Shown one piece after another: positions 17,201-63,471 of a DNA stretch of 64,000 nucleotides. A model generated the notes under the pieces. It was not told where the DNA came from. It was given only the letters and a program-made list of their open reading frames with translations, and searched no databases. How positions within the stretch are numbered: the first letter of the stretch is position 1; every line of letters begins with the position of its first letter. The position numbers were made by a program, and so were the translations under genes. The DNA lies in contig OZ024895.1 in the NCBI GenBank assembly GCA_964017195.1, forward strand, positions 46,123,673-46,187,672. The letters are read 5' to 3'. The DNA is from Siderastrea radians. Lineage: Eukaryota > Cnidaria > Anthozoa > Scleractinia > Rhizangiidae.

Positions 17201-19286
17201 GTTGAAACTTTGTGCAAACCATCAGATAACCACTGACATGAAACTACAGCCAAATGCAGGCTCAGAACGATCGTGGGTGTGGAGCACACCGGCAGATTTC
17301 TCTGAACAGGAATGCAAAGCAGAACGTCTTGCTGTCAGGTTCAAAAACGAAAACATCGTCAAGCAATTCAAAGAGAAGTTCGAGGAATGTCAAGAAATCC
17401 TGAAGATTCAGGCATCACTGAAACTGCCAGTCCAAGAAGAGGCGGGGCAGAAGGAGGACGTGAAGGAAGATCTTCTTGCGAAGTTTAAAGCTGCAGAAGG
17501 GTCTTGGGAGTGTGACCTATGTATGGTGAGAAACGACAGTGTTAAGGTGGAGTGTGCAGCATGTGGAAGCCCAAAAGCAGGCGTGGAACTAAATCAAGAC
17601 CAAAAGACTGGAGGGAAACCATTGTTTTCGTTTGGATCAGGTGCCGCATCATCTGGGACAGGATTTACATTTGGATCTAGTGATGGATTTCCTGCTAGTG
17701 GAGTTTTTTTACTTGGATCAGGCTCTCCAAATATTTCTTCCTTGTCCTTCCACTCATTGGCTACTTCTTCATCATGGAGCAACAGTCCGTTTGGACAGAA
17801 AGACGCCAACAAGTCTCCTCCTGGGTTTGCTGGTGTGGGATCTACTTTGTTTGCATCTCAATCTCCTGGAGGAGATGAGCACGAGGCAGACCATGAAGGT
17901 GACCATGATGGACCACACTTTGAGCCTATTATTCCTCTACCTAACAAAATTGATGTCAAAACTGGGGAAGAAGATGAGGAAGTCATGTTTTCGCACAGAG
18001 CCAAATTGTATCGGTTTGCAGCAGAGGAGAAGCAGTGGAAAGACCGAGGAGTTGGAGATATCAAGTTGCTGAGAAGTAACCAAACAGGAAAAACGCGAGT
18101 TCTTATGCGTCGTGAACAGGTGCTGAAACTTTGTGCGAACCATCAGATAACCACTGACATGAAACTACAGCCAAATGCAGTGTCAGATCGATCGTGGGTG
18201 TGGTGCACACCGGCGGATTTCTCTGAACAAGAATGCAAAGCAGAACGTCTTGCTGTCAGATTCAAAAATGAAGATATCGCTAAGCAATTCAAAGAGAAGT
18301 TTGAGGAATGCCAAGAAATCCTGAAGAATCAGGCGTCACTAATGATGCCAAACCAAGAAGGGACAGAACAGGAGGAGGAAGTGAAAGATCATCTCACGAA
18401 GGTTAAAGCTACAGAAGGGTCTTGGGAATGTGACATCTGCATGGTGAGAAACGACATTGGTAAGGTGGAGTGTGCGGCATGTGGAAGTTTAAAGCCAGGA
18501 GTTGAACCAAGTCAAGACCAGAAGATTGGTGGAAAACCATTGTTTTCATCCGGATCAGGTGCCACATCTTCTGAGACAGGGTTTACGTTTGGAACAAGTG
18601 CGCCACCTTCCAGTTCAGGGTTTACATTTGGATCAGCCACACCGTCTTCCAGTGCGGGTATCTCATTTGGATCGGGTGGGAGAGGATTTTCATTTAGTTC
18701 ATCTAGAACTACTGAAGGTGATGCAAAACCTGTTTTCACTTTTGGATCAAGGACGCCATCTTCTTGGACAGGGTTTACGAGTGAAGCAAGTGCTCAGTCT
18801 TCTGGGTCAGGGTTTACAATTGGATCAGCTACACCATCTTCTGGTTCAGAGTTTACTTTTGGACCACGTGCCCCATCTTCTGGTTCAAGGTTTACATTTG
18901 GATCAAGTGTGTCATCTTCTGGTTCCGGGTTTACATTTGGATCAGCTGTGCCATCTTCCGGGAAAGGGTTTACATTTGGATCAGCTGCACCACCTTCTGG
19001 TTCAGGGCTTACATTTGGATCAGCTGCACGACCTTCTGGTTCAGGGTTTACATTTGGATCGGCTGCACCATCTTCTGGCTCCGGGTTTACGTCTGGATCA
19101 GCTGCACCATCTGCTGGTTCCGGGTTTACATTTGGATCAGCTGCATTACCTTCTGGTTCCGGACTTACATTTGGATCAGCTGCACCATCGTCTGGTTCAG
19201 GGTATACATTTGGATCAAGTGCGCCATCTTCTGGGACAGGGTTTACGTTTGGATCAGCTGCACCATCTTCCAGTTCAGGTATCTGA
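5208..19286 (+). CDS. RanBP2/Nup358-like protein: coiled coil, SUMO E3-type repeat, zinc fingers, four Ran-binding domains, FxFG tail
   Basis: Five exons (5208-5319, 10194-10294, 11015-11092, 11798-11920, 13671-19286) join in frame to about 2009 residues; all phases agree. Order: charged coiled coil (1-170); degenerate RanBP2 zinc finger lacking its second Cys pair (~231); an IR-like block (~369-410, CILVYEV...LPPNFFNY) matching the SUMO/Ubc9-binding internal repeats of vertebrate RanBP2; RanBD1 (~512-640); zinc finger (~680); RanBD2 (~860-994); zinc finger (~1157); RanBD3 (~1245-1378); zinc finger (~1415); RanBD4 (~1549-1683); zinc finger (~1720); FxFG repeats (1761-2009). Four Ran-binding domains match vertebrate Nup358, which disassembles export complexes at the cytoplasmic pore face. 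There is no TPR region and no cyclophilin domain. Exon 1 was chosen because its coiled-coil sequence and phase fit exon 2; it is the least certain exon. The stop lies inside the FxFG array and may be a recent nonsense change. Confidence 0.87.
5322..6330 (+). pseudogene. LINE reverse transcriptase, 3' fragment with one frameshift
   Basis: The frame contains GIPQGSVLGP and the catalytic YADDT motif of non-LTR reverse transcriptases, then a thumb-like and C-terminal region with LDSIERLHCRAARIIFNLP. The frame breaks near 5840: the first part runs to a stop at 5858, while the next frame resumes at WGSCCNSDMLDS. A single-base loss explains this. The domain is N-terminally truncated and cannot be active. 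Confidence 0.85.
6391..9250 (+). mobile_element. Apparently complete DNA transposon (Kolobok-like), TTAA target duplication
   Basis: The 2860-bp element begins GGAGGCTCGATAGGCCAAAATT and ends with the inverted form of GGTGGCTCGATAGTCTAAAATT (19 of 22 positions match). It is flanked on both sides by TTAA (6387-6390, 9251-9254), the expected target duplication. It carries a single uninterrupted transposase gene (6787-8655). TTAA duplications occur in the Kolobok and piggyBac superfamilies, and the protein does not look like piggyBac. It is inserted in the 3' UTR of a LINE, so it is younger than that LINE. Confidence 0.85.
6787..8655 (+). CDS. Transposase (Mutator-like/Kolobok-type DDE domain), 622 aa, intact
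   Basis: The ATG at 6787 opens MPPKKKFRSG, a basic probable nuclear localisation stretch, followed by an acidic Ser/Glu-rich region. A zinc-ribbon-like motif follows near residues 110-150 (CPVC ... CKNRNC). The catalytic core has SGDGTWRKRG, LGDGDSKAH and NQNEAINALIW, giving candidate Asp, Asp and Glu residues of an RNase H-fold transposase. The C terminus is again basic. I recall this family as the Mutator-like transposase domain common in cnidarian and other invertebrate genomes; the TTAA duplications suggest Kolobok affinity. The reading frame has no break and sits centrally between the inverted repeats, so the element could be autonomous. Confidence 0.82.
   Translation: MPPKKKFRSGRSKKRRFAGNRYTIKQKKEENEASVERESSEETEESDAEETTRPLSAEAIEMKSFPASVRKLDEPSGESNSSSSKDDSNGPEGFRFVDISVLASVFQLFRCPVCKYGHIELEEDGSAKMGFASLLVLKCKNRNCKFSERFYTSSKIGGSQAFEVNRRIVLATRNIGIGHQALTKFTGVMNMPSPMNENSYRDHVAAVKNAAETVCKKSMGNAVEEVKSFYEPEQDGIFDIGVSGDGTWRKRGYSSSYGIVTALSTITGKVLDVEVMSKDCTECTVWRNKEGSQEFHDWWEGHQHLCEANYLGSSASMDASGLLAIFQRSVDNYSVRYTEFLGDGDSKAHRLIVEEGVYGNKEVTKLECVGHVQKRLGSRLRSLKTRLGQTRLDDGKSIGGTGRLTKKTIDKLQVYYGNAIRNNTHDIREMQNAVLAIWHHSQSTDDSPDHDLCPPGEDSWCGYQRDLAMGTSDYEHNHALPRAVADTIFPIFEDLSDEDLLKRCLHGGTQNQNEAINALIWQRATKETHSGLNTVELAVFLAVSSFNDGAGSISLVLEELGISPGVHCENACSKLDHDRLRHARRKSSEHSQKRRRQIRNWKKGYTDTLEALEGPHYAAGAF
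9613..9671. repeat. Short foldback, GGCTCGTCACGCAACGCTCC family
   Basis: GGCTCGTCACGCAACGCTCC at the left pairs with GGAGCGTTGC...GTGACGAGCC at the right across a short loop. Related hairpins occur at 13115 and 39628, so this is one family of small foldback elements. It lies in intron 1 of the RanBP2-like gene. Confidence 0.6.
11921..13670 (+). other. Intron 4 of the RanBP2-like gene: CGAATCCCG repeats and remnants
   Basis: This 1.75-kb intron has no supported exon. It contains stretches rich in (G)AATCCCG at about 11946-11995 and 12720-12870, apparently fragments of one interspersed repeat. It also holds a foldback at 13115-13184 of the same family as those at 9613 and 39628. A minus-strand segment at about 12180-12490 reads as a basic Arg/Thr-Gly tail after an acidic stretch, with one internal stop; it may be the remnant of a retrotransposon polyprotein end, but this is weak. 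Confidence 0.5.
18540..19283 (+). repeat. FxFG-encoding tandem repeats of about 36 bp
   Basis: Around twenty imperfect copies of a unit reading GGGTTTACATTTGGATCAGCTGCACC and close variants encode SGSGFTFGSAAPS-type repeats. The FxFG core is typical of nucleoporins that bind transport receptors. The copies are very similar in DNA sequence, so the array is young or kept uniform and its length probably varies between alleles. The minus strand is also open here, which is only a by-product of the repeat. Confidence 0.85.
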
Positions 19287-20440
19287 TTTGGATCAGTTAC
19301 ACCGTCCTCCAGTTCGGGTATCTCATTTGGATCTGGTGGGACAGGATTTTTATTTAGTTCATCTGGGACTACTGGAGGTGATACAAAACCTGTTTTCACT
19401 TTTGTTACGCTAGACTAAATGCCAAGTTTAAGTTGTGCAGCTGCACATGTCTTTGGTTCTTTGAAACAAGGAGGAAATGAAACTGAAACCCAGACTGAGG
19501 AAAACAAAGAGGATGCATCCCAACCAGTCCCGTCAACAAAAGCAAAGGGGCTGTCCAGTTCACACCGTTGGAAGAGGGGACCAAAGAGTAAACGAAAGAT
19601 TTGAAAAAAGTGAGGGGAAGAACCTCCTTGAAAAATGGAAACCGAAAGTACATAGTGTGCAGCAGGTGGAAGTCCAAAACCCAGGAGTTGAATTAAGTCA
19701 AGACCAAAAGACTGGTGGAAAACCGTTGTTTTGATGTGGATCAGGTGCAGCATGTTCTGGTAAAACTGATGATGGTGAAGATGATGCTGCAGAGGATCAC
19801 CACCTCGATGGACCACACGTCCAGCCCATTCTTTCACTTGATCACAAGGTTGACGTGGAAACTGGGGAAGACAATAAGGAAGTCATGGTTTCTCACAAAG
19901 CCAAATTATATCGGTTTGCAGCGGAGGAGAAGTAGTGGAAAGAAAGAGGAGTTGGAGATATCAAGTTGTCGAGAAATAATCGATCAAACAAAAAATGTGA
20001 CTTCTTATGCGCCTAAACAGGTGCTAAAACTTTGTGAGGTTCAAAAATGCAAACAAGTTTGAAGAATGCCGAGACCCTGAAGTATTAGGCATCACTCAAG
20101 ATGCCAAACCAAAAACAGACAGAACAGGAGGTAAAGAAAGAAAATCTCGCGACGTTTACAGTTGCAAATGGGTCTTGGGAGTGTGACATACGTGGAAAAA
20201 TACGACGATGTGCCCATCTTAGGAGGAAATAGCAGAAGAGAAAGATGTAAGGAAGTAATTAGAAAGAACCTGTTCGCAAAGGTTAAGCTTAAGACGCATC
20301 TTGCGTGCGTGAGGTATATGCGGTGAGAAACGTAAAAGATGACATCGGGTGTATAACTTATGGTAGTCCAAAACGGGTTGTTGAGGGAACTCGATTCGAA
20401 ACAAACGATTTTTTAGCTTTTGATCTGAACTGTCATTTTG
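19287..20440 (+). pseudogene. Decayed C-terminal extension: FxFG end, zinc fingers and a fifth Ran-binding domain
   Basis: Immediately after the TGA stop the same frame continues with FxFG-like sequence to a second stop (VTLD, about 19418). Frame-shifted pieces then follow the module order of the gene: a zinc-finger linker (PGVELSQDQKTGGKPLF, about 19684-19733), then a Ran-binding domain (KAKLYRFAAEEK then stop, WKERGVGDI, about 19800-20000). Two zinc-finger scraps follow: GSWECDI near 20172 and another near 20310. Several stops and shifts make the region non-coding now. It may be 3' UTR of the active gene. Confidence 0.75.
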
Positions 20441-21089: not shown

Positions 21090-38300
<17,211 letters not shown>

Positions 38301-41400: not shown

Positions 41401-41897
41401 AAAAGAGGTAAGGAAGCAGGATTCCCAAGGTTGAAGAAAGACTTTGAGGAAGGCGAAAGTTTGCAACATTGCATACATTTTGCAATAGAAAGTGCAAAGA
41501 GGCAGTAGCCACCAAAAAGAGGAAGCAAGAAGTTCAGACCAGTTCTCTTTTTCCAGTTCTCAGTTCTCATATTCATTTTAGGTATGCATCAAGTCCACTG
41601 TTCAAGGAAGATGGTTTTTTCTTTATCAGACATGGTGAGAGGTATGTAGCGACAGTATTTGCTTGGCAAGATGAAAGTGACACATGTGTAGGGTGCCTTC
41701 ACTGGCTTGCAGTCCTGCCAGAGTACCAAAGGTGTGGCCTGGGGACAGCTCTTACTCTCTGTGTTCTTATGTTTCACAAAGATCAAGGAAAAATGTCAGT
41801 GAGCCTTACTACTGAAGTGTACAGGAATGCTGCAATTAAGCTGTATAAGGACATTGGGTTTACTTTGTGTGACAGTGATGAATATAGTGATAGTTGA
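38452..41897 (+). CDS. GNAT-family N-acetyltransferase (167 aa)
   Basis: Four exons (38452-38550, 38860-38890, 38983-39040, 41582-41897) join in phase to 504 nt. The predicted protein starts MREDQCRMNFYRLQ. The C-terminal half is a typical GNAT fold: beta strands leading to LAVLPEYQRCGLGTAL, where the R/Q-x-x-G-x-G/A-type segment binds acetyl-CoA, then TEVYRNAAIKLYKDIGF. Substrate is unknown. The style (LHWLAVLPEY...G.G.AL...AI.LY..GF) strongly recalls bacterial GNATs. An in-frame ATG at 38335 would add 39 residues but overlaps the E2F-type site. Intron 3 is 2.5 kb and holds foldbacks and repeats. It converges with the receptor gene ending at 44035. Confidence 0.82.
39620..39732. mobile_element. 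Foldback MITE with an 8-bp target duplication
   Basis: CTAGTCTCCTTCGCAGCC and TTAGGGTCGTCACGCAATGCTCC form the left arm; the right arm is the near-perfect complement ending GGAGACTA. GCCCAGTT occurs at both borders (39620-39627, 39725-39732), an 8-bp duplication as made by hAT-type transposases. It lies in GNAT intron 3 and is related to the hairpins at 9613 and 13115. Confidence 0.7.
39954..40318. repeat. Two diverged direct repeats of about 160 bp
   Basis: 39954-40112 and 40166-40318 share CATAATACAAGAATACTC-like and CTTAGACCCAGT...CCTGAGATA blocks in the same order. Old tandem or dispersed duplication in GNAT intron 3; non-coding. Confidence 0.55.
40880..40962. repeat. Degenerate foldback around GGCCCCTCTC
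   Basis: CCAGTGGCCCCTCTCTC and CATGCAACGC pair imperfectly with GTTGCGTGGAGAGGGGCC downstream. It is similar in style to the CGTCACGCAACGCTCC family but shorter and diverged. Confidence 0.4.
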
Positions 41898-44034: not shown

Positions 44035-47000
44035 CTAGTAATAAAGAGCACTCTCATTTTGGGGCATGTCTCTATCTTCAAATCCTTTGTTACTGTCTCC
44101 GATAGTAACCGCTGTCCCATTGGATGATATATTTGACTTTGTGACATACTTGGCACTTGCTCGCCTGCGTGCTCTTGAATTGTTCTTGAGCTTCTTTACA
44201 ACCGTATGTAAAAGTAGTGTTACTACAAAGATTACAATTAAAAATCCAACTACTGCAATAGTTAATATCCCTCCAGATATGCCATTTTTCTTTTCTTTTT
44301 TCTTTTTTTTGTCATCTGATTTCCCTGGAGTTGAATTCTCTGAAAAAAATAAACAAGACAATCGCAAGTCAAACTATGATTGTTTCTGTAGAAACACATA
44401 CAAAATGTTTTCTGTCACTTTTGGAAAATAACTCAACAACAGCTACGTCACAACTGGGATAAACCAAGGGCACCCAGGATAAACCAACAGGCAGTGGTAA
44501 GATCCCAGCCATAATGAGGAAAAGTTGCTTTGAAAGCCAGCACTGACTGCAACCCAGCCATGAGATCCCCCCAACCCCCATACACCTGGAGCACCCACTG
44601 ACTATTTTAGTGGAGGGGAAAAATAAGATGGCTTTCCATGCCATGTGGAACTAATGCTAACATCAGGAAAAGGATTCAGTGTGCACCTGACCTCAAAGCT
44701 GGTCCTAAATGAACCCCTGCAACTGTATTGGGGGGAGACCACTGAACTGTTATATAGAAGACTCGTGGTAGGCCTCCCAGGATCCACCAAAGACATCTTA
44801 TAGGATTGCCATGCTAAAACGCTGAACCAAAATGCCTCCATAGAACACCTAAAACACTGTGCTAGGTCACCACACTTTCTAAATGCATTTCAAATGTGAT
44901 ATTATTACCTGGGGCATTTTTCTTTTTTACTCTGCCCTTCTCTTTGTTGGAGATCTCTGTTGGTTTTGCTGTTAATATATATATAAAAAAAACACTTTCT
45001 TTAAGTATAAAATACATAAACTGTATTTTCTAAATGCCTTACATATTATTAGCCTCTGAAATATAACATATTATGAGGCAAGAGTTCTTTAGCTTCCTAA
45101 CTGTAATATGTTGTGTGAGATCCTACGTGAAAGTAAGGCATATTGTTATAGAGAGAGAGGGATAGAACATTTATTATTTATTTCACTCAACATTCAAGCA
45201 AATTCAAGCATTTTGACAACTATTTGAAACATCTCACTCTAATTCACTTCTCAAAATGACCCTGCAATTATTTCTCAATCATTCTCGAGAAAACTACTGC
45301 CAGATGTTGTAAAAATATGCTAAAAACGGGCTCCTTTTTGTTTTGAACTGACATGAAGCGTCTTTTTAATTAAAATATGGATCACTTCAAATTCCACTTC
45401 CTCTTGGGGTCAGCTTGGGAGCTTAAGTATTGATAACTTCTTCTTAACTGTATTAATTTATAATGTTACCATGGTATGAGTATTTTTTTTGGTAACCTTA
45501 TTTTTACTCTAATTGCTCGAACATTCAGTGGAAATTGTCTTAAAACCTTGCAGTCCCTGGGCCGACTGAATTACAATAAGCTTGATAACAATTCACAAAA
45601 AATTTATACAGTAATGACCAAAATTCTAGTAGAGTGTGAAATGAAATACCGACTTCCGCTTGCATCCAATCTGCATGTAAAGTACCCTGTACTATGGGAA
45701 AGAGCAGCACCCAACCATACTACACCAGGGGATTCAAAACTGTGTCCCCATGCTGTAGCTGTGAATTACTATTTTGAATTTACTTGGATTGTAAATAGCT
45801 TAAAATAATGCTAGCACGTCGGTTAATTTTGTCAGCATCCCAAGTATCATTATTGTTGACTTTCTTCCTTGCTTTCCTTCAAGTTAGCAGAGGCATGCGG
45901 TAAAGTATTGGAAAGTACAAGTTGAAACCAACTTGTGTTCTTACCAGTGACATGTTTGCCATTGCAAAAATCCTTTTCACAGCAGTGAACTTTCTGTTTA
46001 GTTGGCAAAGTGCTATTGCATACCAAGTCTCTTTTTGGCCCTCGATCAAGGCAGCTCTGGACAAACACAGTTGTTGCATCTCTGCTGCGCAGTGCAAGAC
46101 ATGAGCCATCTGTTGTGCATCTGTTGTTTTCACACTCATTACAATAGCATTGTAGCCTCTGTGCTGTACTGTTATATCCTGTGTTAAAATGCAACATACA
46201 GGAACAATGATTATGTATCTTCCTATTTAGGGAGTGTCTTTAAATGTCACTAACTTAATTAATTTTGTCCTTTACTTGTCAGTTGAATAAATAACTGAAA
46301 GATTTCTTCACTCTAACTTCATAAGTTTTCACAGAGAGGGAGAGAGAGCTCTAACTGCAGAGCTATGAGTGCAGTGACAGGTTTGTGGGAAAATTTGAAT
46401 GTTAGATGGGGGCTTGTGGGAGCCTTCAATACCAACCTGAGTTTGGCCACGGAACAGGCCACTGTAACTGTTGACATAACCCATCACCAGAGCTCACTTC
46501 AGAGAAGTTAGGAATGCACTTTGGAAAGAAAATATTGTGCCTTTGAAATTCACCATCACAACTGCTCCAGACTTCCTGACACAGTGATTGACAGGTGTAC
46601 AGGGTGTGGCCATTATTGGTAACACATGGTGATGTTTCAATGAAACAAGCAAGTCTTTTTAAATTGAACGAGCAGTTGCTGTTGAGGACTGGGCCAAGGT
46701 TATTGAGTAAGGACTGGAGCCGAGTTCTGGTCTTGTTTCCCAGGCCGTTGAGATTGTCGCTGAGGCATGCAGGTTTGGTTACTTTTTCACAGCTTGGTAA
46801 CGTTCGTTCTGTTAAGAGAAGACATCGTTTTAGTTTTAGTTTATGAAAGAATTTTTGGCCGTCACTATTCTGGCTTCTATAATTCCAGTCTAGAAATAAA
46901 CGAAAAATTCCCAAAGGAACGCAACTCTGCCTATTTCGTGCAACCTAGAGAGCACTATAGTCTATATTCTCTTGTATCGTACAATTCGGAAATGAGTTCA

Positions 47001-48989
47001 ACTCCTCGAAAAGAAACACGTCTTTGAAAGTAATTGTGTTTCCGGAATAATTACTGAAACACGCTTTTTCCTCTGCAATATTCGTAGAGGTTCCGGTGTT
47101 AATTGTTAAATGAGGAAATGTAAGTAAAAGTGCTTTACGTACTGCAAAAAATCGTGATACATCAACATAATGATACATGGTTAGATTCCGTTGCTAAGTA
47201 ACACGGTGTCATACGAGAATGTCGTGTGCTGATAAAATTTCTGACTGAAAAGAACATCAAAAGAGATTTTCTTTTTTTTCTTACATCTTCGTTACCTTTT
47301 GATATAATATCTTCAAGTTTGTAAAATTTCCCCATACGAATTTGTGAGAGGTTCCAAAGAACGTTATAACATAATTGTTTATATCAAATAAGCCTATTTC
47401 TCATATTTCAAAAATTCCCTGAATACCTTGTTACAGGAAATTTACAATTGACGACATCAAATTCTCGCGATTTTTTTTTTAAATTGCAAAATTTTGATGA
47501 CGCAAAAACGGAAAGCCGCTTAAAAAGGATTGTGAAATTTCTTGAAAATTCCATCTATGTCGCGATATTTCACCTTTCAAAAATTGCAAACTTCATGTAA
47601 TATTCTGAAGGTACCTTTTGTATGTTATGCTTACATGATGACCCGCACGGTTTTGAAAACGCGGTATTTGCGATCAGTTCAAGTCAAGGGCACACATATA
47701 AGTCTGTTAACAACATCATAGGCGAAGAAACTTACAAAATATTTATAATGAGCGCAGACTTTGTTCTTTTTAAGTTGACCATAAAAGTTGCTACAGCAAT
47801 TGCAGACAAACAAATATTTTACAAAGGTTTACCAATAATCCCTGTATATACTGTATTTGCTTCTTTTCGTGTTCTGTTTTAACTCGTTGTCATAGTAAAC
47901 ATATAGAGCAGAGGACAAAAGACACGGTTTTCCAGCGTGAAATATTGCGATGTAATATGACCTTGAATTTTCTTTTTAATTTCACAGTTCTCAGCTAAAT
48001 GATTGTCTCGATGTTCTTTCCGTCTTTCACCCATTGAATACCCAATTCCCGATAGTTAAATTTTCATTACCCTTTCAAAGCTTTTTGTTCCATTGAGATC
48101 ACTTTCCTGTAATTATTTTATGTGTGTGTGTTCATTAAGAAATATTGGATTTGTTAACAAGCATCTTTTTAAATGTCAATCGTCTCACGCGACTAAAGTC
48201 GTTAACCGAAAAAAACAGAAGTTTTTTTTAACTGGGCGTCTTTGTTGCTTAATATGTTACGCCTTGTAAATATTACTGAGTTGCAATTTCGTACACGCAA
48301 GGACTTTTGGTGCTAAGAAGAAGAGAACTTTAATTCCTAAAAAAATCAGTGACCCTCAAGTTTGTTAATGACTGTAGACTTAATTTGATTGAGTTCGAAC
48401 AGTCTAACGAAAAACTAATTTTAATAAGTGCCTCATTGTTATTAAACCTCTAATCGCGGAAAAACGGCTGAAACTGCAGGCTATTTAGTTTAAACTCACC
48501 TTTTGTATTGTTTGCTCGATGAATGAATCCTGGAGGTTTATAGCACTGTTTAGAGTTGTCTTTCTCAGGAGACAGCAGTCTGCAGTATGCAACATACCGG
48601 TTAAAAAGTCCACTTTCTCTCAAAAGCGTGTCGCAATCGTCCACAAACTGCTCGCAAACTTCTCGGCAAGGCAGCACTGGACCTTGTACGCTTTCGGAAC
48701 ATTTTGGAACGTAGCGAGCACATGCGAAAGCTCTCGAATGCGGTGAGCAGCTGTTGAAACGATAGGCAAAAAGTGTGATTTCTGAAGATACAAAAGCTTG
48801 ATAGCTCTTTTGTCCAACGCTGGAAAAATTGGCCGTATACTTGTAGCCAATGTGAGCGCAGGCCGGAAGAAGAGAGGTGTCAATTTGTTGGCATTTGTTA
48901 GCGAGTGCAAAATCTAATTTTGCAAAAAGCGCGGAATTGAACATAAGTAACAACAGAATCATACTGGCAGCTTGTTTCCACGAGAGCAT
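44035..48989 (-). CDS. Single-pass receptor-like protein: two Frizzled-type CRDs plus an activin/BMP-receptor-type ectodomain (486 aa)
   Basis: Five exons (48500-48989, 46437-46808, 45945-46178, 44909-44968, 44035-44339), all separated by phase-1 introns, give 486 residues. A signal peptide (MILLLLMFNSALFA region) is followed by CRD1 (~31-155, with CARYVPKC and PCREVCEQF typical of Frizzled domains). CRD2 follows (~168-280, CQSLCQEVWSSC), then a three-finger domain (~297-358, CYCNECENN ... CCEKDFCN) matching type I TGF-beta/BMP receptor ectodomains, a short Lys-rich linker, a membrane helix (~408-433) and a tail of about 50 residues with a basic start. There is no kinase and no seven-helix domain. 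Known Frizzled domains bind Wnt and known activin-receptor domains bind TGF-beta ligands. Dual binding or decoy function is inference. Exon/domain correspondence supports the model. Confidence 0.85.
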
Positions 48990-50775: not shown

Positions 50776-53700
50776 TTATACTGGCAGGTTATTTTCGGTG
50801 TCTGTCTGCGGCTCGGTGTATGTTGATTGCTGTTTGACATAACCACTTTTCTTCTGCTCATAGCGCCTGCGCACTGCCACAGCGACGTAGATGAAAACGA
50901 CCGCAGTCAGCGGCACCAAAACGAGGGCAGCAATGAGGCCTGCTGAGAAGGAAAACGGCAAGCTGTGTGGAGTGTTCCCTAGGGAGAGAAAAGTATTATT
51001 AGTTATAGAGTTAGGGGCCGATTACGTGAGGCGGGCTGGTTCGGTTTACCGGGATCTCGGCACGTCTGTGAAACACACTAAGGGGCCGATTACATGAGGC
51101 GGGCTGGCTCGGTTTTCCAGGATCTCGGCACGTCTGTGAAACACACTGAAAATCAACTTTGCGATTAGACCGATTACATGGAAAAATTTCAGCCCGGCTG
51201 GCCGGGATGAAAATTTACCATGTAATCGCGATTGCCGGGCCAGCCCGGCTAGCCGGGTCAACACTTTCTCGTCACTAAATTTCGCTTCAGAGCAAAATGG
51301 CTCACCAGAAGATCGATATTTCTCTTTCTATATAACACATAAAGGTTTATGAGACCATAAAGCTACGTAAAACTGAAAATAATACGCCAAAATAATGAAT
51401 TGGCAAAAATAAAAACACTTGGTTCATGCTCTTTGACGTAGCCATCTTTTCACACGACAGCTTCTAAATTTAGCCGCAGGCGGGCTGGCTCGCCTCATGT
51501 AATACCGAGCTGAGCTGTCATCTCGGTATACCGAGCCAGCCCTGCTAGCCGGGCCAGCCCGGCTCATGTAATTGGCCCCTAAAAATCAACTTAGTTGGAA
51601 TCCCGGCATCGCGATGCCGGGCTCTTGGCTAGCCGGGCTGAAAATTTACCATGTAATCGTGATTGCCGGGCCAGCCCGACTAGCCGCGCCAACACTTTCT
51701 CGTCACTTAATTTCGCTTCAGAGCAAAATGGCTCACCAGAAGATCGATATTTCTCTTTCTATATAACACATAAAGGTTTATGAGACCATAAAGCTACGTA
51801 AAACTGAAAATAATACACCAAGATAATGGATTAGCGAAAGTAAAAACACTCGATTCATGCTCTTTGATGTAGCCATCTTTTCACACCACAGCTTCTAAAT
51901 TTAGCCGCAGGCGGGCTGGCTCGCCTCATGTAATACCAGGCTGAGCAGTCATCTCGGTACACCGAGCCAGCCCTGCTAACCGGGCCAGCCCGGCTCATGT
52001 AATCGGCCCCTTATAGAGTTGCCGGATTTTAACTCCCTTAGCGGTTCCCGATTTGCCAAAGAGGACGCCTGTTGAAGAGACATTAACATTCATCACGGTT
52101 CAACCTTGTTGAATTCAACATGCTAAACGCATGTGGTTACCCTGTTGAAAGATGGTGACCCTGTTCAAAGATGTTGCCTCAACTTTTCTTTTGTTCTCAT
52201 GTGTGAACAACAACGTTGAATTCCTTTGGCTACCTCGTTCATCACCGTGCAACATAATAGCCCTTTTCACAGTTAACGTTTCTCATTTGCATGACAATGT
52301 ATTGGAACATGGATGTGAGGCAATTTCGGGCAGAAACTGCAAAATTGCCCGAAATTGCCTCACATCCACGTTAAAAAACATTGTAATGCAAATGAGAAAA
52401 GGCAACTGTGAAAAGGGCTATTGCATTCAACAGTGTTGAATGATGATATTGAATCCGCGTAACCGAGGCCTTAAAGTGTGATGATTTTTAGGGGCCAATT
52501 ACATGAGCCGGGCTGGCCCGGCTAGCAGGGCTGGCTCGGTGTACCGAGATGACTGCTCAGCCGGGTATTACATGAGGCGAGCCAGCCCGCCTGCGGCTGA
52601 ATTTAGAAGCTGTCGTGTGAAAAGATGGCTACGTCAAAGAGCATGAACCAAGTGTTTTTATTTTTGCCAATTCATTACTTTGGCGTATTATTTTCAGTTT
52701 GACGTAGCTTTATGGTCTGATAAACCTTTCTGTGTTATATAGAAAGAGAAATATCGATCTTCTGGTGGGCCATTTTGCTACAATGATCAAGCCCAGTGAT
52801 GTTTTATTTATTTTTCTACGCAAACTGACCGGTTTACGCAAAGGCTATCAACTGTATCATGAAAAAGGCACTAAAAGTTTGCAGTACGTCAAAACATCCC
52901 AAGGAAACCACAAAAAGTAAAAAAGCTGATTTATTTGTATCCAAGCTTTTTATGTGTTTACACGAAGCCTAAGAAGAAATGGTCCTTTTAAAACGCCAGA
53001 CAACAAGCGGCAGGTTAACGTTTGCTGTTTGCCGTAAACGTGATGTTTAATCTCTCTATAATTCTGAGCGACTCGGGTATCAGCAAACGTGCTTAAAAAA
53101 TTGAACCCTGATTGCAGGTTACGACTGTAGTTATGAAAACCTCCAACACATCAAACACAACGAAATAACTGAATCTATTGAAACTTCAATAGAAAAGACA
53201 AGAAATGTGAAAGCATGGTCAAACGATTGGGGTTTTTTTGCTTTGGTTGAAAAGAAGTGAAAAGGAAGAAACTGCGTCATTTTGGGCATCAGAGCAAAAG
53301 AAAAGCATAGACAGTTTGTTGAGGACAAAATCGAAGGTGGACGGCGAAAGCGCTGAAAATGATTTTGCGATATCGGGGAGTGGCTAGATATGAAAAGTTC
53401 AGAAAGGCGCTAAACTTCGCTCTTTGACCGTGGAGCTCCTTGGCGGGAGAAACAAACAAACGTTGCGAACTCACAAGCTTGTAACAGAAAGTAAACAGCA
53501 GAGAGGTTACTAAGCTACTGGCACATGTTACCACACGTACATACCTGTATCCCAGTGTCTCGCACTAGGCCACCTCGTTAGCTCACAGAAGCCGCTGGGC
53601 GTATTTCCCTGAGCAGGCTCAGCACAGTAACTGCTAACTTCAGGTATGTTGAACGCTTCTGGGCAATCATCAAAGAGCAGATCACACCAAGTGTTACACA

Positions 53701-56700
53701 CTGTCATTGTCTTGTCTCCGTCACACGGCGGCGTGTACGACGCACAGGCCAGTTTCTTCAGAGTCTTTTTACACGAGTCGCTAAAAACGCTGCTGACCAG
53801 TCTGTTCATGGTCGCGGTCAGGTTGTCTTTGAACTGGTCTTGTGCATTCTCTGTTATAAGGGTTTTCTTACAATCCGCTTTTGTGCAGTTTTTATTTGAC
53901 ACTGCGTTGTTGCAAGAAAGGCCTGTAAGTGATGAGATGAGTCCAAATAAACAAAACACAACTGCCATCCAAAGAACTTAGTGGATATTGAACGGTATGG
54001 CAATGCAGGTATATAGCGCAGTTTACATATCAGAGACAAAATGCACTAGTTGATAGGCGAATCGTTGTTTACAGTTTTTTCCTCAATAGCATAAGCTTCT
54101 CGTTTTCTAATCAAGTTACAAAAATGTCATTTCTGAATATTAAAAGGACGTATCATATCAAAGGGCATTACCGGCCTTTTCCGCAAATTTCAGTCCGAAA
54201 TTTTCTTTGAAAAATATGATGTTAAAAACTCGAAATTTCACAAAGAATGTATGAGTTCCTTAACACTTTTTCCCCCAGAAATTTTGCATTTTCCGTTGGC
54301 GTATATTGCCTTAGATTATTGGAAGCAAAGAGCTAAATATTGCACAGCCTGAGGTTAGTAAGTTTAACAAGCTCTTTGAGTTATTGAAGTCAATTTTTAG
54401 TTAGCATGCTGCCTTTTCTATAAAATTTGTATGCCAGTGAAGCAAAATGTAAAGAATGACCAGCAAAGATTCGCCTACAACTAAACCGCACAATGGGTAT
54501 TTTTCGACAAAACTGAAATCGCGACAATTGCCATTCACCTTCATTAACGAAACGACGATCTAGCATAGGAGCTGAAGTGACTATTTACAAATGACCGTGC
54601 ACAGATAGAAACTTAACTTTTCAGAGCATAAAAGATGGAATCGAAGTTATCTGCATGTATCTTCTACCAAATTTGTTTCTAAACAGTTTCATGTCTTTAA
54701 TTACGCGTTAAATGGTTCCGTGAAGCACCTCCGTAGTCTGAATTAGCAAGCTGCATACACTTGGCAAATTTTGTATAATATTTCTTGTTGCGCCATCACA
54801 CACGACACTTTTGATATTGCTGATCATAGCAGTATTCAGGCCGCGTGTCACAATATCTTAATGATGCTATAAGCTCATATGGAAGATCATCGCAATTGCG
54901 TACACAACTGAAGCAGTTGTGAAAAGCAAGCTTGAAAAATTCAGGGGCTCAAAAGCCCCGAAACTTGGTGGGCCGATTGAGGGCACGATAATTCACACTG
55001 TATCTTGTAAACAAAGAAGTTCTAACCATGGAACTTTGCTATAAGATACTGAAATATTTCTTATCTTAGAGACATCTTAAAATAACAGCTTTGTAGAATG
55101 AGCTCTTCACATTTTTACAAATGGCTCTTCCGGGCCGAAAAACTTTTCGAGGCTTTCGAGAAACGCACGCCTGGTCGTGGCTTTGATCCCCGTCGGGGAC
55201 TCAGATTATTAGGATTTTTTTTTGTCCCACGCTCGTGACATACAGAATATTATATCTTTCTAAATACACATGTTGTTTTCGAAAAAAAAGTATTCGGTTG
55301 GCAGCGAATCTTGGCAAATAAAGTGCAAATATCCATATGAAGACGAGCTCATCTTGAAAAAAAAAATCCATGATTCACAACAATTTATAAGCACTCATGA
55401 ACAAATTCAACTGAGAGAAAATTTGGCGAGGCGTGTGGACATGTTCAGTATCTTTCGAGATCTTCAGAGTTTCAGCACGTTTAATAATTCGATCAGCGTC
55501 AGACACGTTTTAAACAAATAAGTATTGAACAAGTGTTGTAGATAACCTAACTTGATTTCCGCTGCAGGTCACAAAATCTTTTTAACTCCAGTGGAGATTA
55601 TCAGTTTTTTGACGTAAACGATATTGTAACGGCAATCTCATCTATTTCTATAAATTAGGAGATTTAATTCATTTTCAGTTATTTGAAGCTATTTCGAATA
55701 CGCGAATCTCATTGCCTCAATCGTCATTGTTTATTAGCTATTATTAGTCATTCACTGTGGTCTATTTGAACGCGTGAATCTGATTGGCTCAATCATCATT
55801 GTCTATTCTCTATTATAAATTTTCAAGGTTTAGACCACTGCAAAACCGTGTACGATCAAAGCTTGCTCTACGTTGGATCAGTAGATCGTGACCAGTCAAA
55901 AGAAGATAAAATATGGAAATAATGCAAAGACTGGTCAGACAACGTGCACGAGGCGTAAATACAATATTTCGGCTGGCCAACACCAGCCTTCTTCAGGTTT
56001 ATTGAATGAAACGCGAATTTACATGGTCTTTATACAGCTTTATATAACGAACCGGAAATAACAGGACAGGGCTACGTGATGTGTTAAAAATAAAGAAAAA
56101 AAATAATAATAATAATGTAATAAAAGCGGAAATACAGTACAATAGAGATAAGGAAAAAGCTGGTTGGATTACATTTCGTCTCTTCTGTTAAGACCTGCAC
56201 CCGGGGACCTGCAGGCTCCAGTGTGTTTCCTCGGTGGATGAGGAATGCCTCACGAGCCTTTCTAACTGAATCACGATTAGTATATAATTTTTCAAGTGGT
56301 ATAAGAAGCATATGATTACCCGTATGATTGCCAGTAATAAAGTGTCGTGAGACAGCGGTAGGATTGTAGCTGGAGGTGTTGATAATGGGTCGCCTATGTT
56401 CATTAAAGCGTTCTTTGAGGCGACGTTTAGTTTCTCCGATATATTGAAGATTACACTTAGTACATTGAATCATGTAAATCACATTAGACGTTTCATAAGT
56501 AATGTGCGATTTGATTTGATTCATTTGTCCAGTACTATTAAAAGTATATTGCGTGCGGCCATCTTCGATATAAGGGCAGGTGGTGCAATTATTTTTATTG
56601 CACCGACGCTCTCCGAAACGCACCTTATTTACCTCATACATGGCTGAGATTTTTGGACGATATTTTCTTTATCTGGACCGAAGGTTCAGATAAACTGAAA

Positions 56701-59517
56701 GTATTTGTCGATTATCTCAATAACCTCCACCCCACCATTAAGTTCACCTGTTCACATTCCCTTACTAATGTCCCATTCCTTGATGTTATGGTTTCACTCA
56801 AGGATGGTCTTATAGCAACTGATCTTTACACTAAACCCACTGACAAACATCAGTATTTACTTATCTCTTCATGTCATCCCCCACACACTAAACGTTCTTT
56901 TCCATATAGCCTTGCACTTCGCCTTCGACGCATATGCTCCAACTACGACACTGACAAACAACGTTCTCAGGAACTCATGAACTACCTCGTCAATCGGGTT
57001 ATAGACTAGATTTTCTTAAAACCCAAATACAACGGGCTTCTGACGTTTCCCGCAAAGACGCTCTTAAAACCAAACCTAAACGACAGACAGATACTGTTCC
57101 TTTTGTCATTACATACAATCCTGCTTTACCTAACATATCCCGCATAATCCACAAACACTCTCATGTACTCTACTCATCTGATCGTTGTAAAAAGGTTTTT
57201 ACTAGTCTTCCTCTAGTAGCCCACCGGCGTTGTAAAAATATTAGTGACATTCTTGTTAGAGCTAAGTTACCGGAACCTGTTAACATTGACAACTCACGGT
57301 TTCCTCCCGGCTCTTTTCGGTGCAATAAAAATAATTGTACCACCTGCCCTTATATCGAAGATGGCCGCACGCAATATACTTTTAATAGTACTGGACAAAT
57401 GAATCAAATCAAATCGCACATTACTTGTGAAACGTCTAATGTGATTTACATGATTCAATGTACTAAGTGTTCCCAGGGTCTCTCTCTCCCCGCCCCCAAG
57501 AGCGAGAGAAGAGAGACCCCTGTGCCTCAAAGAACGCTTTAATGAACATAGGCGACCCATTATCAACACCTCCAGCTACAATCCTACCGCTGTCTCACGA
57601 CACTTTATTACCTGGCAATCATACGGTTAATCATATGCTTCTTATACCACTTGAAAAATTATATACTAATCGTGATTCAGTTAGAAAGGCTCGTGAGGCA
57701 TTCCTCATCCACCGAGGAAACACACTGGAGCCTGCAGGTCGTAACAGAAGAGACGAAATGTAATCCAACCAGCTTTTTCCTTATCTCTATTATACTGTAT
57801 TTCCGCTTTTATTTCATTATTATTATTTTTTCTGTATTTTTAACACATCACGTAGCCCTGTCCTGTTATTTCCGGTTCGTTATATAAAGACCATGTAAAT
57901 TCGCGTTTCACTCAATAAACCTGAAGAAGGCTGGTGTTGGCCAGCCGAAATATTGTAGTTACGCCTCGTGCACGTTGTCTGACCAGTCTTTGCATTATTT
58001 CTCTATTATGGTACAACGCTAAATTTTGGCGTGCTCCCATTGGTCGAAAACGATCATGTGACGCGACAGTGTCTCTCCTAGCGGGCGCCTATCAGCGCAT
58101 AGTACCCGCTTTTGGCAATTTTCGCTCAAAATTTAGCGTTGTGCAATAAAAACAATAGAGTCCTGTCTCAGGCCCTATGTGTGATAGGTTCCCTCGGAAA
58201 TTTGATGTTCAAACGTCATATAAGCCCTCGAACGTTGTTGTGAACATCAAATTTCCTCGGGCAACCTATCACATCTGATGATCGATAGTGCCTTCGACAG
58301 AAGAACTCTATTGTTTGAGTAGAAAAGTTGGCCTCGTTGTCCAGTTGTTGATTAGGGACCGGTCATTATTTGGAGATGATAGGGGGAGGGTCAATGATTT
58401 CTATGCAGGGAAAAGGGGGAGGGGGGCACATAAATTTATGCATGCATATTAGGGAGCTTTGTTATACAAAGGGGGGTAGGGGGAGGGTCAGCAAAAATGT
58501 GCTTCACAAAGTGGAGGTTCAGGAGAATTTGAACATGGCCTCCCTTCATTTGCACCAGCCCTCCCCCCTCTAAATAATGACCCATCCCTTAGCACACTCT
58601 TGAAAAAACAGGGGGGGAGGATGAGGGTATGTACTTTCGTATGTAAGCTACATATATATGCGCTGCTCCGAGGAAAATGTATCTGCCACTTTTTAAAGGT
58701 GGGTATAAATTTTCGCCGTTTTGATCTCAATTACGTCTGAAATACGGTACAAAAATCATATATATTGGTCTCCATCAGGGCTAGGGTTTCAATTTCAGAT
58801 GAGGCTCTTCATGTACTGCAGAAATGTCCCAAGACTTTTCCCGAAACTAAAAGCAATTTCGATCAGTTCCAGTCATATTCCGGTTGTTATTCATCATTCC
58901 GAACCCATAATACGAAGTTTTTTTTACATATTGTCATTCCCTAACGTCAATGCTACATCTGTTATTTTTCTTCCCTAATCTTCATTATCCCTCGTTCATT
59001 ATTCACTTGTTCACCCGTGATATTGAACTTATGTTGTATCTAGAATAACATACATACTTGGAGGAGGGTTAATGGAAGATTTGAAATCCGGTGGCTTGAA
59101 ACACTTCGCGTCTGTTTTGTCAGTAGGCAGCAAACTGCATAGCGGCTTCAACCAATTCAATCCACCGGAGTCCATTTGGTCCCCGCATCCCCGAACAAAT
59201 TCCTCGCAAACATCTCGGCATGGAAGCCAAGGTCCGGCCATGTTTTGTTTGCATCGCGGTACATACAGCGAACAGAGAATAAAACTTGTGTAGTTTGAGC
59301 AACTGCCAAGTTTCACCGTGATGTTGTTGATGATCTCGGAATAGTTTTTGGCGTAGTAGTTGTTCGCGAGGTACACGCTCGTCGAATGGAAGCCATTCTT
59401 TACGCAGATCGGGAACTTGGTCTCATCAACCCCTCGACACTCCGAAAGAGCCTCAGTTCTTTCCAGCTTTGTGACTAAAAACACAACCGCTATGTATACA
59501 GGAAATTTCAAATTCAT
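50776..59517 (-). CDS. Single-pass receptor-like protein with two Frizzled-type CRDs (346 aa)
   Basis: Three exons (59058-59517, 53545-53922, 50776-50978) joined by phase-1 introns give 346 residues. Exon 1 has a signal peptide and CRD1 (LCSLYVPRC, PCRDVCEEFVRGC). It matches exon 1 of the neighbouring receptor in layout and ending (FKPPDF vs YKPPGF). Exon 2 encodes CRD2 (CNTWCDLLFDDC) and corresponds to exon 2 of the neighbour. Exon 3 encodes the membrane helix (~292-316) and a short polar tail with YTEPQTDTENN. No activin-receptor-type exon was found. Alternative: exon 2 may begin at its own ATG (53968) with a signal-like MAVVFCLFGLISSL, making a one-CRD protein of 208 residues and leaving 59058-59517 as a separate fragment. 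The two-CRD join is preferred from parallel gene structure. Intron 1 contains a Penelope-like pair and intron 2 a MITE cluster. Confidence 0.7.
51011..52018. mobile_element. Tandem MITE cluster, AGGGGCCGATTACATGAG family
   Basis: Elements bounded by AGGGGCCGATTACATGAG and its inverse CTCATGTAATCGGCCCCT lie back to back. A unit of about 430 bp occurs twice (from about 51164 and 51640) with shared CAGAGCAAAATGGCTCACCAG. A 67-bp end segment is itself duplicated at 51011-51145. GC-rich GCCGGGCTGGC blocks alternate with AT-rich cores. Located in intron 2 of the two-CRD gene. Confidence 0.75.
52256..52422. mobile_element. Foldback MITE, AATAGCCCTTTTCACAGTT ends
   Basis: AATAGCCCTTTTCACAGTT and TTCTCATTTGCAT and CAATTTCGGGCA are mirrored at the right as TGCCCGAAATTG, ATGCAAATGAGAA and AACTGTGAAAAGGGCTATT. 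Nearly the whole 167 bp forms a hairpin. Confidence 0.75.
52490..52778. mobile_element. Inverted partial copy of the GGGGCCGATTACATGAG MITE
   Basis: Starts AGGGGCCAATTACATGAGCC and continues with the complement of the 51.0-52.0 kb units (GTGTGAAAAGATGGCTAC, AAAGAGAAATATCGATC). It breaks off near 52778 without a right end, so it is truncated. Confidence 0.65.
53923..55915. other. Right part of the receptor intron 1 before the Penelope pair
   Basis: AT-rich sequence without supported exons. Two short near-copies, CGCGAATCTCATTGCCTCAATC and CGTGAATCTGATTGGCTCAATC, lie near 55700 and 55780. A short frame at 55270-55521 is not recognisable. Confidence 0.4.
56196..56641 (-). pseudogene. Penelope-like GIY-YIG endonuclease domain (left copy)
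   Basis: The frame carries a Cys-rich entry (RCNKNNCTTCPYIEDG), then IYMIQCTKCNLQYIGETKRR, with the Y-I-G motif and following basic residues, and ends near RGNTLEPAG. The open frame continues to 56084 in low-complexity sequence. The endonuclease motif itself looks intact but the reverse transcriptase is absent, so the copy is dead on its own. Confidence 0.8.
56653..57780 (+). pseudogene. Penelope-like reverse transcriptase end and damaged GIY-YIG domain (right copy)
   Basis: The RT fragment begins at the catalytic DDIFFIW-type motif and includes VPFLDVMV and YTKPTDKHQYL; a frame break follows near 57009. The endonuclease part resumes (CNKNNCTTCPY), but the stretch that encodes NLQYIGETKRR in the left copy is replaced by about 54 bp of a GGGTCTCTC...GAGAGACCC near-palindrome at about 57470-57523. 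The catalytic motif is lost. Confidence 0.78.
58150..58316. mobile_element. Foldback MITE, AACAATAGAGT ends
   Basis: AACAATAGAGTCCTGTC and GATAGGTTCCCTCGGAAATTTGATGTTC are mirrored by GAACATCAAATTTCCTCGGGCAACCTATC and GAACTCTATTGTT. Non-coding. Confidence 0.65.
58353..58589. repeat. Possible MITE with AGGGACCGGTCATTATTT ends
   Basis: The ends AGGGACCGGTCATTATTT and AAATAATGACCCATCCCT are imperfectly inverted around a G-rich core (GGGGGAGGG repeats). Confidence 0.45.
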
Positions 59518-60875
59518 CCCTGATCGAAAACGTAGCCAATTTGAAACTGAGGAGGTTATAAAAATGACGAAGTGGCGCAGTTCGCCCAGGGATCAAATCC
59601 AGCGGCGTCTTGACTCAAATTAATTTTCACATTTGAAAGTTATATGGCGTGACAAGTCAAATTGTTTCTCAGCGGCCACAAGAATGCAAATTAAGCGAAG
59701 TAATTAAAAACGTGTGGTGACAATGCAAAAATAACTTCTCATTATGACTCGCTGTATTGTGGCAGTGCTAGGGTCAAATTGGCGATGCATGTATAAAACA
59801 TGCAAAGCTAAATCAAACCCAACCATGAATTTTAAAATATGGCTTGATAGTTTGAAGACATAGGCACGCAGTGCGTGCAGGAAACTAAATGTAACGTTAT
59901 AGCACTGAGTTCTTAAAATAATGGTTTTGCATCCAGAACTTATTCATAGCGTGCTGTCCAAAAGATAAAGATAAGTTATCTTTGGTTTAAGATTAACACC
60001 CCCTTTCCCAGGGTTTCTATTTCAAGATTTAAATTTCAGTTCATTGAATTTGTTGAGTCACTAGCGAGTTAGAAAATCAGTGGCAAATAAGTTCTTTAAC
60101 TTGGCTTTTAAAGATCAAAGCTAGACATAACAGGTGATTGACAGTGGAACAATGCAGCTAGAAAGCAACTGCTGTTCAGTGGAGAGGGACCTAAAAAGGG
60201 GATATAAGTCGTATTCTTCGACTCACATTTTAATCCTCTTCCCTAACTTTGACTTTGCTAAAATCCCGTTCCCAGTAGCAGCCTTTTCTGATACCGCAAG
60301 TTCCCTTTTTTCATTGCAAAAAAAAAAAAAAATTTTCATTGGCCAATCCCAGTTTGCATCTTCAGGACCCTCAGTTAAAGCTGTTCCACCTGTCCACTTG
60401 TTTGATGTCATATATTGTCTCTCCGTCTTTTGAAGAAAAGGTTTTTTCGTTTCCGCTTTTGTTGTATAGGGTCGATGCGAAATGTATTTTTGGACGTTTC
60501 CTGTGGAAAATAAGTTTTAAAACCCTCTTGGCAGCATCATAGCCACGTAGGAATTACGACAACGTTAAAAGACTTACTTTAAACTTACTGAAAATCTACT
60601 AACCAGTATATTTTTATCATATCCTTTGGAGCTTTTTCTTAGAAAACCGGAAGTTCGTTAGATGAACAACACTGCAAAAGCCAAGTTGGTATAGCATGCT
60701 TGTCTTTTCGTCACGTGACAGGCATGCTGGTAGGGTATTCGGTAAGGAATCGGGGTGTGACATCATAAAAATACGCAGAGCATAACGTGATGCCTATTTC
60801 TTTCGAATTTCTTGAACGCTTCGCTAAGTAGAAAGGCCACAGTTGTAAATAACCTTTTTGGCTTTCAGTCACAGA
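59518..60875. other. Intergenic space between the receptor-like gene and the GIY-YIG gene
   Basis: No gene supported. It contains a 15-base poly-A run near 60318. The segment from about 60700 to 60875 is echoed at 62830-62985 in front of the second GIY-YIG copy, so the tandem duplication includes upstream sequence. Confidence 0.5.
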
Positions 60876-61403
60876 ATGGCCCAGAAGCCGTTCAGAGAAT
60901 ACCACAATCTTCAAGGCTTCCAAAGCGAAGGACGATGGTCAACGTGGAAGAAGGCCATGGTACCCAAAGACACCACCAGCAGTGAGACGTACCTTGAAAA
61001 GCGCGGACCTGATCAAGAAGGATTCATGTGGTCAAACATAGACGATGCCTTATGTGAAGTGGGCGGGCTCTGTGGAATCTATGAATGGAAGGCTACTCGA
61101 CCCGATCAGCCAGACCGTGTAGTTTATGTTGGAAGCACGTGCACCCGTAATGATAGATGTCAAAGATTAAAGAGCAGAATTATTCGGTACTGCAAATATG
61201 GCAATCACAAAGAAGAGCTGATAAATGATGCATTGTCGAAAGGATATGAACTGTGGGTTCGTTATAAACAAGCTGAGGATGAGGAGCGTGCTAAAGAGCT
61301 GGAGAATGACCTGCTGGCCAAGTATGATTATGCTTGGAATATAAGAGAGAATAATCGCTTAAGAGAGATACTGCCTCAGCAGCGGGGTTGCCTTATATTG
61401 TAG
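60876..61403 (+). CDS. GIY-YIG nuclease-fold protein with a C-terminal CaaX-like box (175 aa)
   Basis: Single-exon frame from ATG (MAQKPFREYHNLQ). A GIY-YIG domain spans about residues 69-155: CGIYEWKA, then VVYVGSTCTRN, a following Arg-rich segment (RLKSRIIRY), a Glu in ELENDLL and DYAWN at the end. These cover the expected Tyr, Tyr/Gly, Arg, Glu and Asn positions of the nuclease fold. The ending DYAWN and spacing recall, from memory, plant effector-of-transcription-type GIY-YIG proteins; this is a resemblance only. The protein ends GCLIL, which fits a CaaX box with terminal Leu (geranylgeranyl type). It is not part of the nearby Penelope elements, whose GIY-YIG domain is quite different. 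Start at the ATG because the upstream in-frame TTG is not credible. Role unknown. Confidence 0.78.
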   Translation: MAQKPFREYHNLQGFQSEGRWSTWKKAMVPKDTTSSETYLEKRGPDQEGFMWSNIDDALCEVGGLCGIYEWKATRPDQPDRVVYVGSTCTRNDRCQRLKSRIIRYCKYGNHKEELINDALSKGYELWVRYKQAEDEERAKELENDLLAKYDYAWNIRENNRLREILPQQRGCLIL

Positions 61404-62984: not shown

Positions 62985-63471
62985 AAGAATGAATGAGAGG
63001 TTAAGAGAATCAAGTCATCTTCCACTCGAAAATTGGACTGACTGCTATTTGGCCATGGTACCCGTAAATGATTCAATCAGGAGAAATCTTGAACCACGCG
63101 GTCCACTTCAACCCTGGCAAATGCTGTCAAATATATATAAGGGAAGCTGACGGAGCGGTCAACCTGTGTGGAATCTATGAATGCGGGCAACTCGACCCGA
63201 TCAGCCAAACTGTGTGGTTTATGTTGGAAGCACATGCACTCGCAATGGCAGATGTGAAAGACTGAAGAGCAGAATTGTTGGGTACTGCAAACACAATAAT
63301 CACAAGGCAGGTCTGATAAAGGATGAATTAAGGGAAGGATATGAACTGTGGGTTCGTGTCAAGCAAGCCAGTGGTGAGGAGGATGCTAAAGCCCAGGAGA
63401 ATGCGCTACTAGCCATGTATGATTACGCTTGGAACATAAGAAATAATAACAGCATAAGATACGTTCTTTGA
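62985..63471 (+). pseudogene. Frameshifted tandem copy of the GIY-YIG gene
   Basis: Pieces of the neighbouring protein appear in different frames: GPLQPWQMLSNIYKG, NLCGIYEC, then VVYVGSTCTRNGRCERLKSR through YDYAWNIRNNN. A one-base loss near 63183 separates GIYE from the rest, and at least one more shift lies upstream. The end (SIRYVL) lacks the CaaX-like box of the first copy. The catalytic residues of the second half remain, which suggests recent inactivation. Confidence 0.78.

Follow-up and report, generated by a model that had tools for sequence, protein, structure and literature searches.

A gene on the minus strand of a 64,000-nucleotide stretch of Siderastrea radians DNA (contig OZ024895.1, positions 46,123,673 to 46,187,672; hereafter the window) codes for a single-pass, kinase-less coral protein with a short tail and an ectodomain of two Frizzled (Fz) cysteine-rich domains (CRDs) followed by a three-finger domain (TFD). 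Judged by its sequence, the TFD belongs with TGF-beta/BMP type I receptors, not with Ly6.

Domain composition of the predicted protein

The gene occupies 44035-48989, with its ATG beginning at 48989 and its stop codon finishing at 44035, exactly the span given in the original prediction, which was made from the letters alone. The coding sequence of 1,461 bp, in five exons, specifies 486 residues. Exon borders were derived from the sequence together with agreement with relatives; the four introns are all GT/AG and all internal borders are phase 1, the uniformity that had been noticed earlier. In order, the protein carries a signal peptide, Fz CRD1, Fz CRD2, an Activin_recp TFD, a linker, a membrane helix and a cytoplasmic tail of ~50 residues, and Pfam and hydropathy agree with the predicted series of modules and its lack of a kinase. 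Hydropathy, the only basis for the topology, gives one strong membrane helix (~residues 408-433) plus an N-terminal hydrophobic segment, and Pfam lists no kinase, GS box, NTR or seven-helix family for the protein. The three ectodomain modules contain ten cysteines apiece. Given this, the E-values below, and the same order in two relatives of 485 residues each (P0001 and P0002), the arrangement of modules is not due to chance.

Both CRDs are recognised by Pfam. Fz is found in two stretches of the whole protein (7.5e-19, 68.8 bits; cut-off 32.1) and in exon 2 by itself (7.2e-9, 36.6 bits), which also scores 23.0 bits with the folate receptor family, under the cut-off of 29.8. By sequence, the nearest PDB entries to CRD1 are Frizzled-4 (7.1e-11), then Frizzled-10 and -8 (up to 4.6e-10). 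An AlphaFold2 model of P0002, built with 7 sequences, is poor as a whole (mean predicted local distance difference test score (pLDDT) 46.2); it is usable for CRD1 only (10-residue blocks of 52-83 over residues 31-160), the CRD2, TFD and linker parts being unusable. The modelled CRD1 resembles Frizzled CRDs in the PDB, with 7x8q (Frizzled-10) as the best match (E 2.9e-4, TMt 0.73).

Activin_recp scores 27.6 bits in the whole protein and 33.5 bits (8.7e-8) with exon 3 by itself (cut-off 20.9). Thus both families proposed earlier for comparison, Fz and Activin_recp, exceed their Pfam cut-offs. A profile of the TFD, made from the three members bearing it, matches 19 distinct PDB sequences at E up to 10, all 19 from TGF-beta-family receptors, with TGFBR1 the best (2.1e-6). 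Seventeen are named type I receptors (TGFBR1, BMPR1A, BMPR1B, ACVR1B, ACVR1); 9mir is named merely 'receptor protein serine/threonine kinase', and 7mrz is an ACVR2B/ACVR1B fusion aligned over residues 139-212, presumably the ACVR1B portion. Searched as a single sequence, the window TFD gives 19 matches, of which 17, including 9mir and 7mrz, are TGF-beta-type receptors and the remaining two are alpha-bungarotoxin, a three-finger protein (E 6.5), and Notch (E 7.8). The domain ends in a CCxxDxCN-type motif. In the three sequences with a TFD (window, P0001, P0002) all ten cysteines are kept, and pairwise identity is 39/69, 35/69 and 46/69, where CRD1 gives 87/133, 85/133 and 100/133 for these pairs; the conserved cysteines, with these identities set beside CRD1, argue that the TFD is not drifting freely.

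Coral relatives and the three-finger exon

A protein search found 8 relatives and a profile search 13, including those 8 (scoring in the latter covered the 7,996 candidates with the most words in common). All three relatives with organism names are stony corals, and the full-length relatives in the searched databases are 'uncharacterized' or nameless. P0001 and P0002 hold the complete module set, and their identity with the window protein is 53-55% across 98% of its length. P0002 is an uncharacterized NCBI protein of Acropora muricata, known as a database gene model, and P0001 (source lgn) is an uninterrupted open reading frame (ORF) with a longest contig of 2,469 nt; a further relative, P0005, has 412 residues on 1,918 nt. 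As intron 1 is 1,691 nt long in the window gene and conserved in position, uninterrupted ORFs on contigs this short are probably cDNA, and P0001 would accordingly support the splice pattern of the window gene. Read as cDNA, P0001 would be a coral transcript that includes the TFD exon, and P0005 one from another coral whose chain lacks it.

P0003-P0007 lack the TFD and retain CRD sequence, linker, membrane helix and tail, P0007 being N-terminally incomplete. The domain order, proposed with the original prediction as something to look for in other cnidarian proteomes, is shared by P0001 and P0002 and not by these five, which, like a TFD-less tandem paralogue in the window (see last section), were absent from the earlier account. 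The tail is 27/53 to 37/51 identical between the window protein and the five others of alignment A2, and a YV..SNIS.NG..VTIG-like motif within it is kept with small changes in P0001-P0007, TFD present or not. P0008-P0012 are fragments in which CRD1 runs into an apparent intron at the window intron 1 site, and in fragment P0013 CRD2 runs into one at the intron 2 site; since they end there, these six have no bearing on TFD presence. When residues 288-370, the TFD region, were searched by themselves against the protein collection, 1 candidate came up and nothing matched at E<=10, with too few shared words to indicate absence. Pattern scans of prokaryotic (29 stretches) and viral (52 stretches) contig collections, a long shot for stray coral DNA, confirmed no relative.

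A 13-row tree built on the CRD region places the window gene together with P0001, P0002, P0012 and P0013, apart from the other rows (support 98/98), and the Oculina, Stylophora and other TFD-less rows fall opposite the window gene. The paralogue branch is very long (4.73), which leaves the root, and hence the derived side, unsure. Among the eight scorable members, which are not independent events, the TFD is present in 3/3 on the window side and absent in 5/5 opposite. Acropora belongs to the suborder Refertina, and Oculina and Stylophora to Vacatina; the suborder pattern, with the TFD present in Refertina and absent in Vacatina, is drawn from one named species of the former (Acropora muricata) and two of the latter (Oculina patagonica, Stylophora pistillata).

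The simplest reading of these sequences takes CRD-CRD-membrane helix as the scaffold and the type I receptor module as a phase 1-1 cassette that moved by exon shuffling. The pseudoreceptor-like protein would then be two known modules joined. The TFD pattern may reflect a gain in one of the suborders, a loss in the other or alternative splicing, and the sequences covered fit all three. There are hints of alternative splicing: skipping exon 3 of the window gene would, as computed, leave an in-frame form of 408 aa, and a UniRef record in the P0002 cluster is labelled 'isoform X2'.

Proposed function and alternatives

Animal body axes are patterned by Wnt and BMP signals, which also act on one another, usually via separate receptors and secreted modulators. 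The closest known proteins share parts of this architecture. Corin has two Fz CRDs and is membrane-anchored, with protease and LDLa domains and no known TFD; such tandem-CRD proteins share the paired CRDs and the anchor with the window protein. Frizzleds and sFRPs share its Fz CRDs. However, the window protein has one membrane helix by hydropathy rather than the seven of Frizzleds, its CRDs are in tandem and a TFD is added; sFRPs differ in that the window protein has a membrane helix and no NTR match. TGF-beta/BMP/activin type I receptor kinases share the three-finger ectodomain, the 10 cysteines and the CCxxDxCN-type end, whereas the window protein has no GS or Ser/Thr kinase match, a tail of the length given above and two CRDs upstream. 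MuSK has a tyrosine kinase and is not known to have an Activin_recp domain, and BAMBI is not known to have Frizzled CRDs, its ectodomain being a TFD alone. An excerpt of PMC7272578 reports MuSK, a receptor with a Frizzled-like CRD, as a BMP co-receptor that contacts BMP through Ig3, which makes it a Frizzled-like CRD receptor tied to BMP, as the window protein may be, though via another domain. BAMBI is linked, in passages of PMC9964332 and PMC4581218, to TGF-beta signalling through type I receptors and to Wnt signalling through Frizzled 5/LRP6/Dvl2, and a passage of PMC9964332 describes its inhibition as independent of ligand binding. Compared by published descriptions of BAMBI, both proteins have a type I receptor-like Activin_recp ectodomain, a transmembrane segment and no kinase, and the window protein differs in the two CRDs before its TFD. 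Each of the BAMBI, Frizzled, sFRP and type I receptor kinase families has a defining feature that the predicted window protein does not share, and the protein belongs to none of these families. Searches of Creative Commons-licensed full texts for this architecture, or for its parts in early animals, showed no description of it among the titles, abstract openings and passages viewed; in the passages from a Pocillopora receptome (PMC9897584), frizzled has 2 hits, whereas activin, BMP and TGF have none.

It is quite possible, if short of probable, that the window protein is a kinase-less pseudo- or co-receptor that bridges Wnt/Frizzled and TGF-beta receptor complexes in the manner of BAMBI. The CRDs would dock Wnt or Frizzled/LRP complexes, and the type I receptor-class TFD would join TGF-beta/BMP receptor complexes on the same membrane. 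Having no kinase, the protein would be sequestering or dominant-negative for Smad signalling while kept near Wnt receptors, and one chain would thereby do the two-sided job of BAMBI with type I receptors and Frizzled 5/LRP6/Dvl2. Corals without the TFD would keep the CRD-based arm only. Both types of receptor ectodomain on one chain would offer a testable physical link between Wnt and BMP, and corals with and without the TFD a natural experiment in receptor evolution through exon shuffling.

Several observations weigh against this bridging role. P0003-P0007 (P0006 from Oculina patagonica, P0007 from Stylophora pistillata) are gapped over the exon 3 stretch. Activin_recp is not listed by Pfam for P0001 at E<=1, although that copy aligns along the exon with its ten cysteines kept. 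At the position of the Phe two residues before a Cys in BMPR1A (F85) and TGFBR1 (F60), which we take to be the aromatic hot spot of ligand binding in type I receptors, the window TFD carries L, while S is found in both P0001 and P0002. The TFD modelled alone reaches a mean pLDDT of 42.6, so that structure prediction, a check suggested with the original prediction, bears out the P0002 CRD1 and not the TFD. Finally, CRD partners can be other than Wnt, as with Norrin and FZD4 (title of PDB entry 5bqc).

One alternative is a ligand trap or presenting co-receptor, in which the CRDs would capture Wnt and the TFD would capture BMP or activin directly, giving a dual decoy or a hand-over of ligand. In its favour, both ectodomain families are ligand-binding modules and the single-pass anchor carries no enzyme; L or S in place of the hot-spot aromatic fits a ligand-independent mode better, although this argument concerns a single position, and type I-like TFDs on their own, BMPR1A excepted, tend to bind ligand weakly when no type II receptor is present, which also counts against a trap. 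On balance the ligand trap is unlikely. A CRD-centred receptor for another ligand (lipid, secreted cystine-knot protein, matrix or microbe surface), its TFD serving as a spacer or for adhesion in this lineage and having no Wnt or BMP role, would account for the five TFD-less relatives that retain CRDs and tail, and is in keeping with the tandem duplication, the sub-cut-off folate receptor score of exon 2 and the RECK Frizzled-like score of the paralogue CRD1. However, CRD1 finds its best PDB matches among the CRDs of Wnt receptors and the type I receptor signature of the TFD is kept in all three sequences bearing it, and we regard this explanation, too, as rather improbable.

Far less credible are two readings that question the architecture itself. 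The cysteine scaffold is common to three-finger folds, Pfam makes no call on the P0001 copy and alpha-bungarotoxin is among the single-sequence PDB matches, all of which could speak for exon 3 as an unrelated Ly6/uPAR/CD59 module; yet the toxin match is at the insignificant E given above, exon 3 reaches only 3.7 with CD59 against 8.7e-8 with Activin_recp, no UPAR_LY6 or other Ly6 family is listed for it by Pfam (HMMER filters discard most very weak matches), and the profile matches in the PDB are TGF-beta-family receptors in 19 of 19 cases. The Ly6 assignment, which had been named as an outcome that would undo the original prediction, is highly improbable and is rejected. An artefact joining two genes is more improbable still: the gene model was built on genomic sequence and agreement with relatives, but the same modules lie in one chain both in P0001, where the ORF is contiguous on contigs of <=2,469 nt, and in the P0002 gene model. 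The artefact is thus also rejected, and exon 3, judged by P0001 and P0002, very probably belongs to this chain rather than being spliced to a different gene, the other outcome that had been named.

Tentatively, and with some doubt, the window protein may represent a new stony-coral receptor class that takes Wnt and TGF-beta/BMP inputs on one chain, a tandem-CRD co-receptor that gained a type I receptor ectodomain by exon shuffling, as a phase 1-1 cassette, in Refertina (complex corals) or lost it in Vacatina (robust corals). If true, the two suborders would naturally differ in the wiring between two axis-patterning pathways.

Tandem paralogue and other features of the window

A tandem paralogue lies upstream of the gene on the same strand (50776-59517, minus). 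It has 346 residues in the order CRD-CRD-membrane helix-tail, with all borders phase 1, and 74 of 265 aligned columns are identical with the window protein (28%, 108 bits). Pfam recognises Fz in two stretches of the complete paralogue (70.0 bits), and its CRD1 scores 27.4 bits with the RECK Frizzled-like family (cut-off 27). When the window beyond 40 kb was scanned for the TFD-ending motif, exon 3 of the receptor gene was the sole hit, and none was found in the paralogue.

Table 1. Exons of the receptor-like gene and of its tandem paralogue.
Feature	Position	Strand	Content
Exon 1	48500..48989	-	Signal peptide and Fz CRD1 (Pfam residues 33-139); phase 1 end, donor GTGAGT
Exon 2	46437..46808	-	Fz CRD2 (Pfam Fz); phase 1 to phase 1
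Exon 3	45945..46178	-	Type I receptor-like Activin_recp TFD (by sequence), 10 Cys; phase 1 to phase 1, in-frame skippable
Exon 4	44909..44968	-	Extracellular linker of 20 residues; AKPTE...KG...KNAP common to P0001
Exon 5	44035..44339	-	Lys-rich juxtamembrane stretch, membrane helix (~408-433), cytoplasmic tail, stop
Paralogue exon 1	59058..59517	-	Signal peptide and CRD1
Paralogue exon 2	53545..53922	-	CRD2-like; alone 27.9 bits with Fz, under the 32.1 cut-off
Paralogue exon 3	50776..50978	-	Membrane helix (by eye) and short tail

The last intron of the paralogue contains repeated GC-rich units (51000-52620; gccgggctggcccgg, ggccgattacatgagccggg) that by eye occur in either orientation and may represent a small transposable element. 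Its first intron contains ORFs on both strands (56084-57887) that by eye resemble fragments of LINE-type or other reverse transcriptases, and similar-looking element fragments are seen in ORFs at 5070-6330 (plus).

Past the 3' end of the receptor gene, the next gene-like stretch is an ORF at 41448-41897 (plus) with a GNAT acetyltransferase match (PF00583, 8e-13). Adjacent long ORFs of 418 and 1,535 aa (28762-34580, minus) appear by eye to be gag and pol of a Ty3/gypsy-type retroelement, and an ORF of 650 aa (6703-8655, plus) is possibly transposon-derived. Two ORFs at 60849-61403 and 63181-63471 (plus) are alike by eye, the former with a match to a GIY-YIG domain family (PF19239, 4.6e-10). An uninterrupted ORF of 1,886 aa (13626-19286, plus) appears by eye to contain recurring RanBP2-like segments, repeats resembling zinc fingers and a long tract of SGSGFTFGSA repeats, in which other frames are open too (18493-19413 and 18785-19357, plus; 18794-19414, minus).

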